Below are positions 32,621 through 40,008 of a stretch of 64,000 nt of DNA, one piece after another. Origin of the DNA: Levilactobacillus angrenensis (GTDB taxonomy: Bacteria > Bacillota > Bacilli > Lactobacillales > Lactobacillaceae); the NCBI RefSeq assembly GCF_003946085.1, contig NZ_RHOB01000006.1, positions 62,001 through 126,000 of the forward strand, read 5' to 3'. Under the pieces are notes generated by a model. The model was not told the origin of the DNA, did no database searches, and saw nothing but the letters and a program-made list of their open reading frames with translations. The stretch's first letter is position 1. Each line of letters begins with the position of its first letter. Position numbers and translations under genes: made by a program.

Positions 32621-33076
32621 ATGTTACAACAATACAAGAACATTCTGGTTCCCGTTGACGGTTCCAAGGCAACCCAGCCAGTCTTAGAAAAAGCAATCGA
32701 AGTCGCTAAGCGCAACAAGACCCACTTGGATATTTTAAACGTGCTTGAAGTTAACCAGTTCAGCGATACCTATGGTGGTGCCGTTAGTGGCGACGTCATC
32801 TACAAACTCTCCCAAGACGTCCAAGATCGACTCGATGCCTTGAAGCAACAGGCTATCGACGCCGGTGTTCCCGATGTCAGCATTCACGTGCGGTTCGGGA
32901 ATCCCAAGCCAGTCATTGCCCGGGAATTCCCAGCGGACCACAAGTCTGAATTGATTGTGATCGGCTCAACTGGTTTAACTGCCGTTGAACGTTTAATGGT
33001 CGGCTCCGTTACCAATTACGTTAGCCGTTCTGCCATTTGTGACGTCTTGATCGTCAAGCCAGAACCAACGAAGTAA
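32621..33076 (+). CDS. Universal stress protein UspA family
   Basis: The 151-residue protein carries NILVPVDGSK at the front and IVIGSTGLTAVERLMVGSVT (the ATP-binding G-2x-G-9x-G(S/T) type loop) near the end. UspA proteins respond to starvation and acid stress; the exact role is not known. AAGGGGTGG precedes the ATG at 32621. A likely promoter TTACAC/TATAGT lies at about 32551-32577. Confidence 0.92.
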   Translation: MLQQYKNILVPVDGSKATQPVLEKAIEVAKRNKTHLDILNVLEVNQFSDTYGGAVSGDVIYKLSQDVQDRLDALKQQAIDAGVPDVSIHVRFGNPKPVIAREFPADHKSELIVIGSTGLTAVERLMVGSVTNYVSRSAICDVLIVKPEPTK

Positions 33077-33096
33077 CACCCGTTTAGAAATTTAAC

Positions 33097-33132
33097 GAGA
33101 GCCTGGGACAATCTCCCAAGCTCTCTTCTTTT
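33097..33132 (+). terminator. Terminator of the usp gene
   Basis: GAGAGCCTGGGA pairs with TCTCCCAAGCTCTC, followed by TTCTTTT. Confidence 0.85.
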
Positions 33133-33226
33133 GCGCACAAAATTTAGCTAGCCGAAAGGGTCGCCGCCAGGGCATCCCGTTGCATCTGCCCCTACGGCCA
33201 TTTCCGGCTCAAAAAGGAGCTTTACT

Positions 33227-34117
33227 ATGCAGTGGTCTTACACCATCTCGCTTCCTCAAAATCAACCAGCCATGCCGCTGCGTGCTTTGTTGTCCGCGTG
33301 GGTCCTGCCCAGCCACCTGATTCATGACCTGCGCAGCCACCGGCGTGTCTTAGTTAACGGCCAGTACCGCTCCATGAATCAGCTGGTGCGCGGTGGTGAA
33401 ACGGTTCAGCTGCAGTTCTTGCCCAGCGACTTCAAGGAACCCTTTCCCGCCGTCGAACCCGACAGTGCCGCCACCGTCAGCGTGCTCTACGAAACGGCCG
33501 ACCTACTCGTCATCAACAAGACGCGCGGTAGCAAGACCCACCCGAATCTGCCCTGGGAACGCGGCACGACCTTGAACCACGTGGCCGCTTACCTGGGGTC
33601 TGAGCAGCCTGGACCGTACATTTTAAGCCGCTTGGACCAGGAAACGACAGGCGCGCTCCTGATGACCAAGACGCCGGCCGTCGTGCCCATCATGGTCCGC
33701 TACATTGCTCAAAAACGCGTTCAGCGAACTTACCTGGCTTGGGTCCAGGGGACGCTCACCGGTCAGGGGACCTTTACCGCCCCCATCGGTCGTGACCCGC
33801 ACGATAAGCGCAAACGCCTGGTCAACGGTGACCACGCCCAGTCGGCCATCACGCACTACGAAGTCCTCGACCACCAACCGCAGGCCACACTGGTCAAGTT
33901 GTGGCTAGAGACTGGCCGCACCCATCAACTGCGGGTCCACCTCGCCCATGCGGGGCACCCGCTTGTCGGTGACCCACTGTACGCCGCCTCCAGTCACAGC
34001 CGTTTACGGCTCCACTGCTGGCAATTACGGTTTCCACAACCATTTACCTTGGATTCGGTAGAAACGACCGTGACGGCACCGCTACCCCCTGATTTCGACC
34101 AATTTCGTTTAGATTGA
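33227..34117 (+). CDS. RluA-family 23S rRNA pseudouridine synthase
   Basis: The 296-residue protein has an N-terminal S4-like region (about 20-65) and the RluA catalytic domain. The catalytic Asp is in LSRLDQETTGALLMTK; GRTHQLRVHLAHAGHPLVGD is the second signature. The residue before the catalytic LD is Arg as in the family. It modifies uridine in rRNA or tRNA; the target site cannot be read. AAAAAGGAGC precedes the ATG. Confidence 0.92.
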   Translation: MQWSYTISLPQNQPAMPLRALLSAWVLPSHLIHDLRSHRRVLVNGQYRSMNQLVRGGETVQLQFLPSDFKEPFPAVEPDSAATVSVLYETADLLVINKTRGSKTHPNLPWERGTTLNHVAAYLGSEQPGPYILSRLDQETTGALLMTKTPAVVPIMVRYIAQKRVQRTYLAWVQGTLTGQGTFTAPIGRDPHDKRKRLVNGDHAQSAITHYEVLDHQPQATLVKLWLETGRTHQLRVHLAHAGHPLVGDPLYAASSHSRLRLHCWQLRFPQPFTLDSVETTVTAPLPPDFDQFRLD

Positions 34118-34214
34118 GCATTATCGTCAAAAAAATGTCGATTTAGACGATTACAACCGTTAACCATTTTCACCTGATACACTAAATTCAGTAAGTAGGC
34201 TTAGGGGGGATTTG

Positions 34215-34301
34215 ATGCGCTGGCAATCGCGGGTTTCTCTAATTCTTTTACTTTTGCTATTAGCCATTTTATTAATCTGGGGAATTCTAAATTTATCATA
34301 G
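34215..34301 (+). CDS. 28-residue hydrophobic peptide
   Basis: The peptide MRWQSRVSLILLLLLLAILL, then IWGILNLS, is almost only a membrane helix with a basic N terminus. GGGGGG lies before the ATG and a perfect terminator follows directly. It converges with the candidate RNA gene at 34393-34664. It could be a small membrane peptide, a toxin or a signal precursor; nothing decides this. Confidence 0.6.
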   Translation: MRWQSRVSLILLLLLLAILLIWGILNLS

Positions 34302-34305
34302 AACC

Positions 34306-34361
34306 AATAAGTCACGGGCGCGACCAGCATGCGGAAACTGGTAGCGCCCGTGACTTATTTT
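34306..34361 (+). terminator. Terminator of the 28-residue peptide gene
   Basis: AATAAGTCACGGGCGC pairs perfectly with GCGCCCGTGACTTATT, followed by TTT. Confidence 0.92.
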
Positions 34362-34392
34362 TACCCGTTGAAGTCGACTTAGCTGGAGACAC

Positions 34393-34664
34393 AAAAAAAG
34401 CCGGAGTAACCACTCTCCGACTCCCACTAGCATCATTAGAGCATTCAACATAATCACAGTTTGTAGTCAGGAAAACGCTGTCACTCAAATCAGCCATAAT
34501 CTCAATATGTAGTATTGAGCAATTCAAATCACTTTTAGTTAGTTAAAACTAATTGTGCCGTGAAGTTTTTCCTAATCACACCGATTGAGAGAAACTTCAC
34601 AATGTCAAGAACCTGCAAAATCACTTTATTTTCCAGGCTCCCTGAAAGATTGATTGGTATTACA
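34393..34664 (-). ncRNA. Candidate structured non-coding RNA, about 270 nt
   Basis: On the minus strand a promoter is followed by about 270 nt without a credible ORF and a terminator (GTCGGAG-loop-CTCCGGC, then seven U, 34393-34424). Internal hairpins include a long GTGAAGTTT/AAACTTCAC stem, TTAGTTTTAACTAA, and CTCAATA-CTACA-TATTGAG. The only ATG-led frame, from 34497, has no ribosome site and runs through the terminator. It sits just downstream of, and on the same strand as, the LytTR two-component operon. I do not recognise a known RNA family. Confidence 0.55.
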
Positions 34665-34670
34665 GAACCT

Positions 34671-34698
34671 AGTATATCAGATGGCTGTAGAAATGCAA
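34671..34698 (-). promoter_or_regulatory. Promoter of the 34.4-kb RNA candidate
   Basis: On the minus strand TTGCAT and TATACT are separated by 16 bp. Confidence 0.6.
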
Positions 34699-34784
34699 GC
34701 GTTTTCAGCGAATTAGTTTATTCGAACGTCTGCATTCAGTAAACGGTTTTGCCTGCTGACTTTGTGAAAGCTCCAAGGGGCGGG

Positions 34785-36119
34785 CTATCCCGTCGATAAC
34801 TTCGGCAACGCCACAATTAATTGTCCCCAATGGAATTTGACCTGCAACGTACTAGTTGCTTTCGGGGGTAACATTTCGTGTATATTAGAAAAATCTAATA
34901 CACCAGCATCTGAGAGCACCCGACTGTGGCCGTCTAACTGAGCGTTGTTGGGTACCGGAAAAGTCAGCAGCCAGTGTAGCTCCTGAGGCGTTTCTTGGAG
35001 CTCAAAGGTCACTGCCGCTGGTTGGGCTTTCCCTAGTACGGCCAGATTACGAGGTAGCGTCTCATCAATGATCTGACTCATCTGTTTGAGCACCGCTACC
35101 GTCGCCGTCAGGGGTTCTGGGACCTGAACGAAGAGTTGGACCTCCTGTTGCCGGGCGAGCAAATAATTATGGTATAGCCGAAACCGCAATTCGGTGCTCG
35201 GCACGTTAGCCAAGTCCTCAATCGTTAATTCTGCGGCGTTGCTGGTTTCCCAACCGGAACGAATGTCGATATAGAATTGGCGAAAACCGGCGTAATCGTG
35301 ATCCGCCAGGTAGCCGCCCAATCCCAGCAGCATATTTTGATAGTCATGATTGAACTTCTTCACGGCAGCCATTTGCCGGTTCAATTCAGTGGTATATTGC
35401 TCCCGAAACTCTTGACTCTGCGCTTGGATGCGGCTGTGAGTGGCCTGCAAATGCGTTTGTATCAGCATGTACGTGCTCAACGACAGGCCCACCACCAACG
35501 TACCGGCAATCCCGCCTAAGAAAAACAGGTACTGCGCGGAGTCTTGCAGCGATTGTAAGGAGTATTCAAACAAAATGTAGACGACGGCCAGGACCGCCAT
35601 GAAGGTTAAGAACAAATACTCCATCGACCGTCCCAGCATGTCATGAATCATATTTTCCATCGGCGCACGGGTGAACCACAACCCCGACGCGACCAGCGCA
35701 AAGAGCATGTTGTCGATGACCAGTTCGCTGAGGGTCCCCCACAAGCTGGTCGCAAATGCCAGGCTGGTCAGTTGAATCGTCGCGGCAATCACGATCATAT
35801 CAATGAATTCAATCATGAGGTACGCTAGAATCGTGACGTCAATAAAGGCTGGCAAAAATTGTAGCTGGTGGCGCAGGGCCAATACGCCCCACTCAAAGCC
35901 CAGCAGTAAAATGACGGGCAATGCCCCCAGCAGCCGGCTGTCGGCTGTGAAGGGATTAAGCAAGTCAACGGCCACGTAGACACCTGCCACAATGGCGCAA
36001 AATAAGGAAATGTGTTTCATCATGACCAATTGCGAGAACCAATAGTATTGAAAGAAAACAAACCAATAGACGATGGAATAATCTGCGAGTGAAAAACTCA
36101 GCGCATCGACCGTAATCAT
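34785..36119 (-). CDS. AgrC-like histidine kinase keeping the His but lacking the ATP site
   Basis: The 444-residue protein has an N-terminal sensor of about six or seven membrane segments (1-220), a helical dimerisation region with the H-box FNHDYQNML (His258), and a C-terminal part where the GHKL ATPase should be. There the N-box reads IIDETLPRN instead of DNA.EA, so the Asn that binds Mg-ATP is gone, and no glycine-rich G-box exists; the protein ends LPKLSTG. It can be phosphorylated but probably cannot bind ATP. GAGGGGG precedes the ATG. It follows its partner kinase after four bases. Confidence 0.85.
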   Translation of the reverse strand: MITVDALSFSLADYSIVYWFVFFQYYWFSQLVMMKHISLFCAIVAGVYVAVDLLNPFTADSRLLGALPVILLLGFEWGVLALRHQLQFLPAFIDVTILAYLMIEFIDMIVIAATIQLTSLAFATSLWGTLSELVIDNMLFALVASGLWFTRAPMENMIHDMLGRSMEYLFLTFMAVLAVVYILFEYSLQSLQDSAQYLFFLGGIAGTLVVGLSLSTYMLIQTHLQATHSRIQAQSQEFREQYTTELNRQMAAVKKFNHDYQNMLLGLGGYLADHDYAGFRQFYIDIRSGWETSNAAELTIEDLANVPSTELRFRLYHNYLLARQQEVQLFVQVPEPLTATVAVLKQMSQIIDETLPRNLAVLGKAQPAAVTFELQETPQELHWLLTFPVPNNAQLDGHSRVLSDAGVLDFSNIHEMLPPKATSTLQVKFHWGQLIVALPKLSTG

Positions 36120-36123
36120 TGAC

Positions 36124-37446
36124 TCACCCCCTCGATTTCGTCAAAATCAGTGTAAAGTACAGTCGTGCCTGTTTGATTTCAATCTGCAAGGCCGCATTCG
36201 CCGTCGCCGTGACGATCTCTTGGACCGTGCTCAGCCCTTGACCGTGGCCATTGCCCTTGGTGGTGTACCCGGCATTCATGAATTGATTGATCTTCGGCGG
36301 ATGAGTCGTTGAAACGGGATTGGCCACCGCAATTTCAATGGCATCGGGGTAGTCCAAAATCGCGCAGTGAATGGTGTTCCGCTTTCCCACAGCCCCAGCC
36401 TCAATCGCATTGTCGAGCAGGATACCCACGATGCGTTGCAGCTTCACGTTGGCCAATGGAATCGTCTGAATCGCTGTCGGAATCTCTAGCCGCAGGACCA
36501 AGCCCTGATTTTGTGCCGCCAATATTTTCTGAAATAGTAGGCTCTTCAATGGCGGGTCTTGCAGCTTTTGCAGGCCAACTTCTTCCAGGCCGACCAACCG
36601 ACTAGTCGCTTGCCAGCGAGAATTCAGCGTTTGGTAATAACGGGTCAACCCGGCATAATCATTGGCATCCAGGTAGTCCCCCAAGCGTAGCATCTGCTTT
36701 TGGTAGGTCTGCTTGAACTGGCGGATGGCCTGAACCTGATTGGAGATGCGGCGGTCATAGCGCGATCGAATCAGCGTGGCCTGGTATTCGGCCTGCACGC
36801 GTTGACGGTGAAAGAAGCTCTGCAGGAAGAAAAATAAGCTGGTACTAATCACTAAAATCATCAATAGTTCAATGCTCAACGCAAACGTCATCATCGCGTG
36901 ACTGATGGCCATGCGGTGAATGATCAATGAAGACAACTGTGCCAACACGGCCAGGCTGGCCAGCATCGACATCACGGTCCACTGCTCCTTGTGACTGAAC
37001 GCCAGCCGCTCCAAATTCCCAGGCTGAACGCGCATGCCGGATACGGCCAGTGAACACAGCGTGTAGATGAAAATCTGAAAAATCAGCCGTCCCGTAATCA
37101 ACCAGGCATTCTGAGTGGCGACCATCCCAAAAACTTCAATCGTCACGGCCCGGACCACATCGTTGACCAACACCACGACTAAGTAGATCACAATCGTCGC
37201 GTTGACAAAGATCAGTGCCATCTTGGGACGGTGATGAATCAGGTAGATTAAGGCACTGATTGGCGGCAACATGAGCGCCCAGGAGCGACCCAAAAAAGCT
37301 GGAATCAAGGCCCAGCCCATCCATTTCAAGGGTAACTTCCAGTTCTGTGGCCGAATGACCCCGATCCACAACGTAATGAACCACTGCATCGTGATGGCCA
37401 ACACAAAGTTTATCCAGAAATGGGTATCAAACAGATGTAACGCCAT
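36124..37446 (-). CDS. AgrC-like histidine kinase keeping the ATP site but lacking the His
   Basis: The 440-residue protein has a similar six- or seven-span sensor (1-215). Its H-box is FKQTYQKQML: Gln246 (codon CAG) replaces the phosphorylated His and Thr the following Asp. The ATPase domain is intact, with N-box LLDNAIEAG and G-box GHGQGLSTV. It should bind ATP but cannot autophosphorylate in the usual place. Its helices align without gaps with those of the 34785 protein (both continue LG.YL...DYAG...Y). GAAGGTGAG precedes the ATG at 37446. Confidence 0.88.
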   Translation of the reverse strand: MALHLFDTHFWINFVLAITMQWFITLWIGVIRPQNWKLPLKWMGWALIPAFLGRSWALMLPPISALIYLIHHRPKMALIFVNATIVIYLVVVLVNDVVRAVTIEVFGMVATQNAWLITGRLIFQIFIYTLCSLAVSGMRVQPGNLERLAFSHKEQWTVMSMLASLAVLAQLSSLIIHRMAISHAMMTFALSIELLMILVISTSLFFFLQSFFHRQRVQAEYQATLIRSRYDRRISNQVQAIRQFKQTYQKQMLRLGDYLDANDYAGLTRYYQTLNSRWQATSRLVGLEEVGLQKLQDPPLKSLLFQKILAAQNQGLVLRLEIPTAIQTIPLANVKLQRIVGILLDNAIEAGAVGKRNTIHCAILDYPDAIEIAVANPVSTTHPPKINQFMNAGYTTKGNGHGQGLSTVQEIVTATANAALQIEIKQARLYFTLILTKSRG

Positions 37447-37458
37447 CAACTCACCTTC

Positions 37459-38214
37459 TTATGACTTCAAATGCTTCTGGACCAGCGTTTTGACCTCATG
37501 AAAGCGGCGCGTGGCCACGTCGGTCTGGTCCCCATTCGGAAAAATCAGTCGCCGATTGGCCTCATCAATGCCACTCACGTTATCGAGGTTGACCAGAAAA
37601 CTCTTATCCGTGCGGTACAGCTCCGGATACTGGTCAGCAATATCCTTCAAGAACCCCGGAAATTCCATCAACTGGGTGGCCGCATGAACCGTGACCTTAT
37701 GCGGCGTGTCGGCGGTCGCCACGAAGTAGACATCGCCCATGGGGAGATTGAAAGTTCGCCCGCCAATCGTATAAGTAAATAAATTTTCAGTATTACCTAA
37801 GTAGCTCGTGTAGCGTTGGTACCCGTAGTCAATGTTCTCCCGCAGCTTCTGGTCGATCTGCTCGCGACCAAGGTCCTTGACCACGAAGTCCATGGGCTCG
37901 ACCTTCCGTTCAAATGTGAGCAGCGCCATTTCGGAATGCGTGGTGACGAACACGATTTCCGCAAACGCCAAGTTCTGGCGAATCGTAATGGCCGTCTCCA
38001 GTCCCGTCGTTTTCTCGGCTGGGAACTCAATGTCCAAGAAAAATAACGCATACTCCGGCGGATCCGTCTGCAAGCTTTCCAGCAAAGCTGCTGGGCTGGG
38101 CGTCGCTAGCCGAATCTGCATATCATAATCATTAATCATGATGTAGCGTTGCACCACATCCGTATAATGTTTTAACTGTTCTGGATTATCTTCACAAAGA
38201 TAAACAGCTAGCAT
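37459..38214 (-). CDS. AgrA-like LytTR response regulator
   Basis: The 251-residue protein has a receiver domain with acidic pocket Glu8-Asp9, phosphorylation site Asp61 (FFLDIEF), Thr91 and Lys113, followed by a LytTR DNA-binding domain (about 145-250; ENLFTYTIGG, ELYRTDKSFLVNL). LytTR regulators bind paired 9-bp direct repeats and often control bacteriocins, adhesion or quorum sensing. AAAGGG lies before the ATG at 38214; the GTG three codons upstream lacks spacing. It is first in the operon, 12 bp before the kinase pair. No signal-peptide or processing-protease gene is adjacent. Confidence 0.92.
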   Translation of the reverse strand: MLAVYLCEDNPEQLKHYTDVVQRYIMINDYDMQIRLATPSPAALLESLQTDPPEYALFFLDIEFPAEKTTGLETAITIRQNLAFAEIVFVTTHSEMALLTFERKVEPMDFVVKDLGREQIDQKLRENIDYGYQRYTSYLGNTENLFTYTIGGRTFNLPMGDVYFVATADTPHKVTVHAATQLMEFPGFLKDIADQYPELYRTDKSFLVNLDNVSGIDEANRRLIFPNGDQTDVATRRFHEVKTLVQKHLKS

Positions 38215-38262
38215 TAATACCACACCCTTTTAACTAAACTGTCACCGTACCTATTACCCACT

Positions 38263-38291
38263 AATGTACCCTGATTTTGTCGGATTTGCAA
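38263..38291 (-). promoter_or_regulatory. Promoter of the LytTR two-component operon
   Basis: On the minus strand TTGCAA and TACATT are separated by 17 bp. Confidence 0.6.
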
Positions 38292-38499
38292 TCGTTTCGG
38301 TTGCACGCCGTTTACTTGGTGTGGAATTACTCGTTTCAAACCAAAACGTTAGTCACCCTAATTATCGCCTGACCGCCCCTGATAAATCAGCAATCACCAT
38401 CGACACCGTCAGACGGCCAGTTGGCGGGACCGGTCAAAAATATTTTTTGTTTGGGCATCGTGGCATCACACGACTCATGACGAAAAAATTAGTCGTTCA
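38292..38499. other. Intergenic stretch upstream of the two-component operon
   Basis: No gene seen. Faint similarity to the repeat element (GACGGCCAGTTGGCGGGACC, TCACACGACTCATGACGAAA) suggests a decayed copy. Confidence 0.35.
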
Positions 38500-38607
38500 C
38501 AGCAGGCGAAACCCTGGCTGACGCAGGCTCCTGGTTTTACTAATTTTAGCGGACAGAACCCTATCGTTCCGGGAATTATCGCGTCAATGCTACTTTCACC
38601 CTCTTTA
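38500..38607 (-). repeat. Left end of the interspersed element (copy 8)
   Basis: In leftward orientation CACAGCAGGCGAAACCCTGG, TGGTTTTACTAATTTTAGCG and GGACAGAACCCTATCGTTCC match the left end of the element; the terminus has become CTTTCACCCTCTTTA. Confidence 0.75.
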
Positions 38608-38616
38608 GGTCAGGAC

Positions 38617-38650
38617 TAAAAAAGAACTACCCCCATTGGTAGCTCCTTTC
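38617..38650 (-). terminator. Terminator-like hairpin
   Basis: GGAGCTACC pairs with GGGTAGTTC on the minus strand, followed by six U. No gene ends nearby: the nearest upstream leftward gene stops at 39021. Confidence 0.6.
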
Positions 38651-39020
38651 TAAGTGGATTATTTAATTCCTGCGTCGGCAATTAGCACTCCCCCAAGTTC
38701 TAACCAGTCACAACCCTAGGCCTCCAATAACCACAACTTACTCTTTAGCACATTGGTGACACCCATTTCCTAACAAACCTAAGCCATAACTTTCACTAAA
38801 ACACTGTCAAGCCGACTATTTGATTAGATAATCATTGGGTTTACCCAGCCACGATTCGTGTGACGATTCACGCACACTTTAACCGATTGACTGGCAAAAT
38901 CAGTTGCCGTAAAACTGACCCCTTCCAACTGTTACCACTTTACCATGAAATCCCCCTAGTTATAGGGAACCCGCGCAAACGTCATTAAATGCACGATAAA
39001 GCGGAGTTAAACAGCACAAT
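38651..39020. other. Gene-free stretch of 370 bp
   Basis: No ORF with a ribosome site was found. On the minus strand a consensus -35 TTGACA lies near 38808-38813 but the matching -10 (TATGGC) is poor. A leftward transcript from there would end in the hairpin at 38617-38650. Confidence 0.35.
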
Positions 39021-39449
39021 TTAATTGTGTCGTAGCGAATAAGTTAAAAACCCGCCTAAAATCAAGGGGCTTGTGAAGGCTAAAACAACATCCAAGAGCA
39101 CCCGCCAGTACCATTTGAGCGCCGTCTTGGGGGCTGCTTGTAGGCGCGGTACCCGGGCTGGCCGGTCCATTTTCTCGTAAACGGAAGCCGTTTGGTCCGC
39201 AGCGCGGCGGTGACCGCGCTTTTTCCGGCGGCGAATCGTGGGTGCTTTCACATCACGATTGTCTTCTAAGATGACCCATTTGGCCAGTGCAAAACACAGC
39301 AGACATAGCAAGAAATACCAGTCAGCGATGGTGATACCGGGCATCAAGCGCCACTGTGCATAGTTCAGATGGCCGAGGAGCATAAAGATGACGGTGAAAA
39401 CCAACCCAATGCCGGTTTGTTTAAGCCAATATGTAACTGATAATTTCAT
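39021..39449 (-). CDS. Unknown membrane protein with basic cytoplasmic loop
   Basis: The 142-residue protein has membrane segments at about 10-30, 38-58 and 118-138. The middle loop carries RRRKKRGHRR. AAGGAG precedes the ATG at 39449. No family recognised. It is divergent from greA, with 73 bp between them. Confidence 0.72.
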   Translation of the reverse strand: MKLSVTYWLKQTGIGLVFTVIFMLLGHLNYAQWRLMPGITIADWYFLLCLLCFALAKWVILEDNRDVKAPTIRRRKKRGHRRAADQTASVYEKMDRPARVPRLQAAPKTALKWYWRVLLDVVLAFTSPLILGGFLTYSLRHN

Positions 39450-39522
39450 AGGAAAACTCCTTTTCTTTTCCCGCAACCTTAGTTAGAATGGGACGTATGA
39501 GAGAACAGGTTGAGGTGATTCA

Positions 39523-40008
39523 ATGGCAAATTCACGGGATTTTAACCCCATTACGGCGGCCGGCTACCAAGAGCTACAGGATAAAATTGCGGCGCTAGAA
39601 GCCGACCGACCAGAAAAAATTGCAATTCTAGCGGAGGCCCGTGCACACGGTGACCTCTCGGAAAACGCTGAATATTCGGCGGCCAAGCGGGACCTGCGCC
39701 ACCTGGAAAGCCAATTGCGGTTTTACAACAAGCAGCTGCAATACGCCAAGGTCGTGAACCCCGCCGCCAACGACACGGTTGAGCTGGGCAAATGGGTCAC
39801 GGTCCAATTCATGGACGACGCCGACCAAGATTGCTACCAGCTGGTCGGAACTCAAGAAGCCGACCTCGATGCCGGCAAGATTACGCGCGTGTCGCCTCTG
39901 GGTAAGGCCTTGTTGGGCCACCATCCAGGCGACACCGTGACGATTCAAGCGCCCAACGCCAGCTACGATGTACAGGTGGTGGCGGTTAGCCTGGCGCGGC
40001 CCAGTTAG
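39523..40008 (+). CDS. greA: Transcription elongation factor GreA family
   Basis: The 161-residue protein has the N-terminal coiled coil with the acidic tip loop AEARAHGDLSENAEYSAAK, which in Gre factors places two acidic residues in the RNA polymerase active site for transcript cleavage. The C-terminal FKBP-like half (about 85-160) shows RVSPLGKALLGHHPGDTVTI. GAGGTG precedes the ATG. Lactobacilli often encode more than one Gre factor; whether this is the main copy cannot be told here. Confidence 0.9.
   Translation: MANSRDFNPITAAGYQELQDKIAALEADRPEKIAILAEARAHGDLSENAEYSAAKRDLRHLESQLRFYNKQLQYAKVVNPAANDTVELGKWVTVQFMDDADQDCYQLVGTQEADLDAGKITRVSPLGKALLGHHPGDTVTIQAPNASYDVQVVAVSLARPS

Follow-up and report, generated by a model that had tools for sequence, protein, structure and literature searches.

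A probable split AgrC-type histidine kinase with complementary lesions, and a small RNA gene beside it, conserved across Levilactobacillus

Organization of the locus

The window analysed here is a stretch of 64,000 nt from Levilactobacillus angrenensis (contig NZ_RHOB01000006.1, positions 62,001–126,000). It contains an operon of two AgrC-type sensor histidine kinases, referred to below as HK1 and HK2, and a LytTR response regulator; a first-pass annotation of the same DNA had proposed that the two kinases are halves of one machine. The genes are arranged on the minus strand in the order regulator, HK2, HK1, their reading frames separated by 9 and 4 bases:

37459–38223, minus strand: response regulator, leading the operon and composed of a receiver and a LytTR DNA-binding domain (Pfam Response_reg, E 2e-8; LytTR, E 6e-14)
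36124–37449, minus strand: HK2, the ATP-site half, an AgrC-type sensor kinase with intact N-box and G-box and Gln at the phospho-His position
34785–36119, minus strand: HK1, the His-donor half, an AgrC-type sensor with phospho-acceptor His258 in HDYQN and a degenerate ATP domain

The annotation had placed these features correctly, including His258 within the FNHDYQNML motif of HK1 and the Gln at the corresponding position of HK2. Its Gln246 is counted from an ATG; the same residue is number 247 from the upstream TTG, from which HK2 is 441 aa long. The best Protein Data Bank match for both proteins is the kinase module of Staphylococcus aureus AgrC (6e52). For HK2 this match has an E-value of 1e-21 and covers the ATP domain as well as the dimerization and histidine phosphotransfer (DHp) domain, and the protein also matches Pfam HATPase_c_5 (E 9e-9). 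For HK1 (444 aa) the match is limited to residues 227–343 (E 5e-5), and no Pfam family is found at E≤1. An AgrC/HPK10-type kinase has an H-box, an N-box and a G-box in one protein; neither HK1 nor HK2 has all three separately, and the two hold them jointly.

HK1 and HK2 are homologous, with a BLASTP E-value of 7e-16 and 23% identity across 259 columns. The statement that their helices align without gaps is accurate around the His, and the 259-column alignment as a whole includes 11 gap positions. A profile comparison (hhalign) gives 99.6% over 400 columns and places the C-terminal part of HK1 on the ATP domain of HK2. The ATP domain of HK1 is therefore degenerate, rather than absent.

Complementary lesions across the genus

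HK1 and HK2 are found side by side in 34 of the 35 Levilactobacillus genomes searched. The exception, G305, is 72% complete and lacks both. (Labels of the form L### denote the other loci compared and G### the genomes searched.) Six of the relatives are named records, all Levilactobacillus, including L. brevis CD0817 and L. suantsaiihabitans. Alignment of orthologous loci had been set beforehand as the test of whether the split is functional, and the complementary pattern is no chance occurrence, recurring in 34/34 loci (the window plus 33 fetched loci, in which all residues below were tallied). Four regularities are evident: (i) HK1 has the His, an Asp at +1 and an Asn at +4 in every locus; (ii) HK1 has the N-box Asn in 0/34 and the last G-box Gly, matching HK2 G405, likewise in 0/34; (iii) HK2 retains the N-box residue N347 and the glycines G399, G403 and G405 in all 34 and (iv) the His position of HK2 is occupied by Gln in 24 loci, Arg in 5 and His in 5, so that 29/34 lack the His, while an acidic residue at +1 and an Asn at +4 are each absent from all 34. 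The phospho-acceptor His and the ATP site thus lie on two different proteins, which is the sense in which PMC3591291 speaks of a split kinase, and this conservation supports the functional interpretation put forward in the first-pass annotation. On these tallies and the selection data below, the complementary split in Levilactobacillus is fixed and is not decay.

A third kinase-like gene, HK3, is present in seven genomes (L110–L116) and encodes a further His donor that lacks an ATP site in 7/7 cases. The phosphatase motif H(E/D)xx(N/T) occurs, as HDxxN, in 34/34 HK1 and 7/7 HK3 sequences. The best conserved segment of HK1 is the first DHp helix, at 83% mean pairwise identity among 33 HK1 rows; the frame-broken HK1 of L114 (377 aa) entered the residue tallies and not the segment identities. 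The regulator acceptor motif LDI(E/D) is found in 31/31 homologous open reading frames (ORFs) of more than 200 aa from the 33 fetched loci. The regulator is interrupted in L096, broken in L115 and beyond the contig end in L098. No agrB or agrD peptide gene was recognised in the gene clusters common to more than five loci, a comparison restricted to ORFs of at least 60 aa, which shorter peptide genes would escape, and made without a family search of the neighbours.

Two loci contain insertions, one between the regulator and HK2 genes (L084:4733–6759) and one inside the regulator gene (L096:10004–11333); they carry opposite-strand ORFs of 429 aa and 391 aa, respectively, and both kinases stay open.

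Selection and ancestry of the pair

The ratio of nonsynonymous to synonymous substitution rates (dN/dS) was estimated for whole genes in 14/14 genome pairs and ranges from 0.02 to 0.07 for HK1 and from 0.03 to 0.05 for HK2. The degenerate C-terminus of HK1 gives 0.03–0.12 in the 13 pairs that yielded a value. The ratios are rough because many dS values exceed 1, and some region-wise dS values are saturated and yield no ratio. By these estimates, both HK1 and HK2 are under purifying selection.

As a control set, 24 AgrC-like kinases in 20 stretches outside the genus were hand-picked among the listed matches to HK1. All 24 read as intact, with the His-Asp, the N-box and the G-box present. Among these 24, L135 (the nearest by score) and L136, both of one other genus, have single intact kinases directly behind a regulator. 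In a tree of 67 rows, comprising kinases from 19 of the 34 loci and the 24 others, HK2 forms one clade and HK1 together with HK3 another (each 100/100), and these join with L135/L136 at 98/90. The first-pass annotation had called the two kinases duplicated partners. Their homology is borne out; a sister relationship between the two would fit the data (approximately unbiased (AU) test, p-AU 0.20).

A small RNA gene downstream of HK1

Directly 3' of the last kinase gene in 34/34 loci is a conserved non-coding segment of 266–283 nt as delimited, which we describe as an RNA gene. The relevant features in the window are:

34393–34669, minus strand: conserved non-coding RNA gene of about 275 nt, from the 34-locus alignment, 5' end approximate
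34396–34425, minus strand: intrinsic terminator of the RNA gene
34671–34698, minus strand: promoter of the RNA gene, placed by eye, with a weak −35 TTGCAT, 16 nt and a −10 TATACT
34758–34768, minus strand: box TTCACAAAGTC, located past the HK1 stop codon and ahead of the RNA promoter, a candidate regulator site
34694–34707, minus strand: palindrome TGAAAACGCTTGCA resembling a catabolite-responsive element (cre), overlapping the putative −35 of the RNA gene

At 18 of the 41 consensus pairs, at least one sequence has a compensatory change in which both sides are altered and pairing is kept. Covariation is 0.323 vs 0.207 in shuffles (0/500 as high) and 0.055–0.119 when the partners are slid, the latter control leaning toward RNA structure because the structure was derived from the same alignment. 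The window RNA has a folding z of −3.48, with 2/200 shuffles as good. A model of the 3' half of the RNA (R2) finds exactly one copy in 34/35 genus genomes, missing G305. In a 201-genome sample of the family it gives eight matches, all Levilactobacillus, and 0 in the 193 sampled genomes of 39 other genera, although weak matches may have been lost there to stricter filters. Over the RNA stretch Rfam gives nothing at E≤1. Another model, R1, held just 8 pairs and was dropped for the searches. A reading as a small coding gene was set aside because a one-base deletion in L086 falls inside the would-be frame.

We lean toward the RNA being a regulated output of the kinase system. The alternative is that it is simply a conserved 3' untranslated region or an unrelated neighbour, a tenable if doubtful reading. 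In its favour, the candidate box TTCACAAAGTC, whose TTCACAA is kept in 33/34 loci in the alignment (missing in L115), has no conserved second half-site, which counts against the RNA as an output of the regulator, and the cre-like site hints at other control. The core of that site, AA[AG]CGNTTGCA, occurs at a nearly constant distance in 31/34 loci. A true cre site was not upheld, as two cre consensus strings matched 0/34 and 5/34, and we use 'cre-like' only. Against the RNA as a mere appendage of the operon or an unrelated neighbour stand its own −10, terminator and covariation, its co-occurrence with the kinase pair in the sampled genomes and the precedent of the Fas system discussed below. 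A consensus promoter scan did not report the RNA promoter, presumably because its −35 has 3/6 consensus bases; such a weak −35 would fit a promoter needing an activator.

Inside the RNA, at 34596–34606, is a near reverse complement of the box, GACATTGTGAA in the window and GACTTTGTGAA in many loci, which may serve as a second binding site or in RNA pairing. As for targets of the RNA, a search of the window's genome with one conserved RNA stretch matched the RNA gene itself and two sites with 3 mismatches, fewer than a control pattern (5), and no target is put forward.

Relationship to the Fas system and other split kinases

The first-pass annotation regarded obligate split kinases of this kind as rare. 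This claim is weakened by the existence of Fas-like pairs. FasB/FasC of group A Streptococcus, published in 2025 as a heterodimer (Baral et al. 2025, PMC12675982), and the biochemically characterised CheA3/CheA4 of Rhodobacter sphaeroides (PMC3591291) had already been described. FasBCAX resembles the Levilactobacillus locus in having two AgrC-like membrane sensors, of which FasB is the ATP half and FasC donates the His; a ComE-like regulator and a small RNA belong to the locus as well. In a two-hybrid test FasB and FasC interact with each other and neither with itself; FasC H246 is needed, the ATP domain of FasC is dispensable, and FasA is proposed to drive the RNA FasX (all PMC12675982). Two complementary AgrC-like sensors and a LytTR/ComE-like regulator, the ingredients of the Fas three-component system, are likewise found here by sequence. 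The gene order is different, however, being fasB-fasC-fasA-fasX there and regulator-HK2-HK1-RNA here. The Levilactobacillus RNA parallels FasX by place.

To compare the two cases, 59 genomes of the genus of G440 were searched, and 10 stretches from 8 genomes with neighbouring matches were read, comprising 11 pairs (G653 is among those left out). We take this genus to be Streptococcus because the two kinases of L157 (G675) agree with FasB/FasC of PMC12675982 in length (448 and 427 aa) and in where their His residues lie (246 in FasC, 241 and 284 in FasB). One member lacks the H-box His in 11/11 pairs and its partner has HDxxN in 11/11; the G-box is lost from the His-bearing member in 10/11. The N-box Asn is still present in 3/11 His donors (L157, one of L164, and L166), unlike in HK1, and the loss of the ATP site is therefore less thorough than in HK1. 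In the FasB-like protein of L157 (L157:4675–6021) the H-box position is Ser254, and the His residues 241 and 284 are elsewhere; the excerpted text of PMC12675982 considers H241 and H284 of FasB and does not state a Ser as the H-box lesion.

A second tree of 59 kinases was built from 8 of the 34 loci, 20 of the 24 others and 10 of the 11 Fas-like pairs, L159 being omitted for its near identity to L158. In this tree the Fas-like pairs group together (99/87) among kinases of their own genus and its relatives, with intact kinases between them and Levilactobacillus. A joint His-donor clade is rejected at p-AU 8e-5 and a joint ATP-half clade at 1.3e-4; the groups had been set by lesion ahead of the tree, the tests were run once it had been viewed, and several branches are long. 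Since common descent with the FasB/FasC split is rejected, the split evolved at least twice, and by these tests the Levilactobacillus and Fas-like splits are separate in origin.

Other comparisons are less close. In CheA3/CheA4 the kinase and the phospho-His are on two proteins, as is proposed here; neither CheA protein autophosphorylates alone, and the His-bearing one also has phosphatase activity (PMC3591291). That is a CheA-type chemotaxis system with whole domains missing, whereas both HK1 and HK2 are full-length membrane sensors. Hik36-Hik43 of Synechocystis is described as a split histidine kinase and shows a two-hybrid interaction, but it is a cheA homologue in two distant genes and not a pair of full-length duplicates with complementary lesions (PMC7656254). 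In lactobacilli, nothing recognised as dealing with this locus was found in the literature among the matches listed, and a term search of PMC8895600 turned up none of FasB, heterodimer or Lactobacillus. AgrC of S. aureus belongs to the same kinase family as HK1 and HK2 but is one complete kinase. For AgrC, a laboratory experiment pairing His-dead with ATP-dead mutants has reportedly been made. Split kinases as such are thus known; new here is that a complementary split of independent origin runs through a whole genus and has an RNA gene of its own.

Proposed mechanism and alternative explanations

Each kinase has lost the half of the machinery that the other has kept, and the two therefore most likely work only as a mixed pair. 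That HK1 and HK2 constitute a split kinase is very probable, and it is likely that the whole explanation is a split, obligately heterodimeric AgrC-type sensor kinase that drives the LytTR regulator and probably the RNA. The Fas precedent, the adjacency of the genes, the reciprocal loss in 34 loci, the selection data and the finding of a lone AgrC-like pair in the window's genome at E≤0.001 all favour the split kinase. We infer that HK1 and HK2, made from one operon, would dimerise via their DHp helices, and that HK2 would bind ATP and phosphorylate His258 of HK1 in trans. HK1 would then hand the phosphate to the LytTR regulator and, having the HDxxN phosphatase motif, would probably also dephosphorylate it. 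A motif of this type flags possible bifunctional split kinases, for which modelling predicts ultrasensitivity and bistability (PMC3591291). Once phosphorylated, the regulator would probably switch on the small RNA next door through its promoter; the RNA would then be a principal output, the role that FasX has for FasBCA.

Several observations weigh against this interpretation. A complete kinase in an orthologue had been named as a sign of simple decay, and the His is present in five HK2s (L095, L096, L097, L099 and L111). In these five, however, the +1 residue is Asn or Thr and the +4 residue is Gln or Lys, so that both the +1 acid and the +4 Asn are missing, and HK1 is complete in 0/34 loci. 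Four of the five form one clade in the tree, and because this clade sits nested among Gln-bearing HK2s it suggests a return of the His. In L114 the reading frame of HK1 is broken near the N-terminus, and HK3, the second His donor, is whole. Among the Streptococcus-like pairs the His-bearing member of L166 looks complete (1/11). AlphaFold models built from seven sequences per protein reached a mean predicted local distance difference test score of 41.1 for HK1 and 56.8 for HK2, and are unusable.

HK1 could instead be a pseudokinase that serves as an allosteric sensor or inhibitor, with no phospho-transfer from HK2 and no phosphate on His258. DivL is a non-canonical kinase, and RetS/GacS is named among such kinases in PMC12675982. 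The HDxxN of HK1, however, is invariant in 34/34 loci, which would be needless for an unused phospho-acceptor, the regulator acceptor motif is kept in 31/31, and H246 of the published counterpart FasC is required (PMC12675982); we regard a purely regulatory HK1 as unlikely. It is less probable still, indeed very unlikely, that HK1 and HK2 are not each other's partners and pair with kinases encoded elsewhere: HK1 cannot autophosphorylate, and any kinase with a fitting DHp type could in principle serve, but searches of the window's genome at E≤0.001, using the HK2 sequence and the HK1 profile, turned up no third AgrC-like kinase, and the two genes are adjacent in 34/34 loci. Decay, under which one or both kinases would be pseudogenes or close to being lost and the lesions would have arisen by unrelated accidents, draws on the broken parts in L096, L114 and L115 but is largely contradicted by the selection data, by the conservation of the first DHp helix and by the span of both lesions across the genus, and is highly improbable.

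Neighbouring elements

Three further features flank the locus:

38615–38900, minus strand: a further conserved non-coding element, 5' of the regulator gene; it surrounds GAACTTGGGGGAGTGCTAAT and closes with a terminator-like hairpin and T run
34215–34301, plus strand: ORF of 28 aa, strongly hydrophobic, MRWQSRVSLILLLLLLAILLIWGILNLS, between the RNA gene and a pseudouridine synthase-like gene
34306–34359: long GC-rich hairpin AGTCACGGGCGC...GCGCCCGTGACT

The element around GAACTTGGGGGAGTGCTAAT has a folding z of −2.48 and a motif match upstream of the regulator in 33/33 loci, two of them doubtful (L097 has another sequence and L111 is cut short). In a 151-genome family sample its 19-mer is exact in 6/6 genus genomes and occurs with 2 mismatches in 3 other genomes. 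A simple motif scan over 4 kb found peptides like MRWQSRVSLILLLLLLAILLIWGILNLS in 20/34 loci; the product could be a small protein of the membrane or else a type I toxin. The hairpin is possibly a two-way terminator; Rfam over 33000–40000 gave just two sub-threshold miRNA-precursor matches (mir-5880), both on this hairpin.

Implications

In textbooks, histidine kinases work as homodimers. A naturally occurring pair whose complementary lesions are kept throughout a genus is strong evolutionary evidence that trans-phosphorylation within a heterodimer is used and selected, and a food-associated genus offers a safe model for a design so far studied in a human pathogen. The Fas model is itself touched by the Ser that L157's FasB-like protein carries where the canonical His would be. 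Seven Levilactobacillus genomes have two His donors against a single ATP half, and different heterodimers could there bring signals together or send them along separate branches. Modelling ties bifunctional split kinases to switch-like, bistable responses (PMC3591291).

A broader proposal, for and against which we would give about equal weight, is that split AgrC-type kinases with a dedicated small RNA are a convergent class of three-component system. On this view, duplication and complementary loss turned intact kinases into split ones on two or more occasions, one at the root of Levilactobacillus and another within Streptococcus, and both times an RNA next to the kinases is the output. Two separate origins make it testable whether kinase splitting and small-RNA drive go together.

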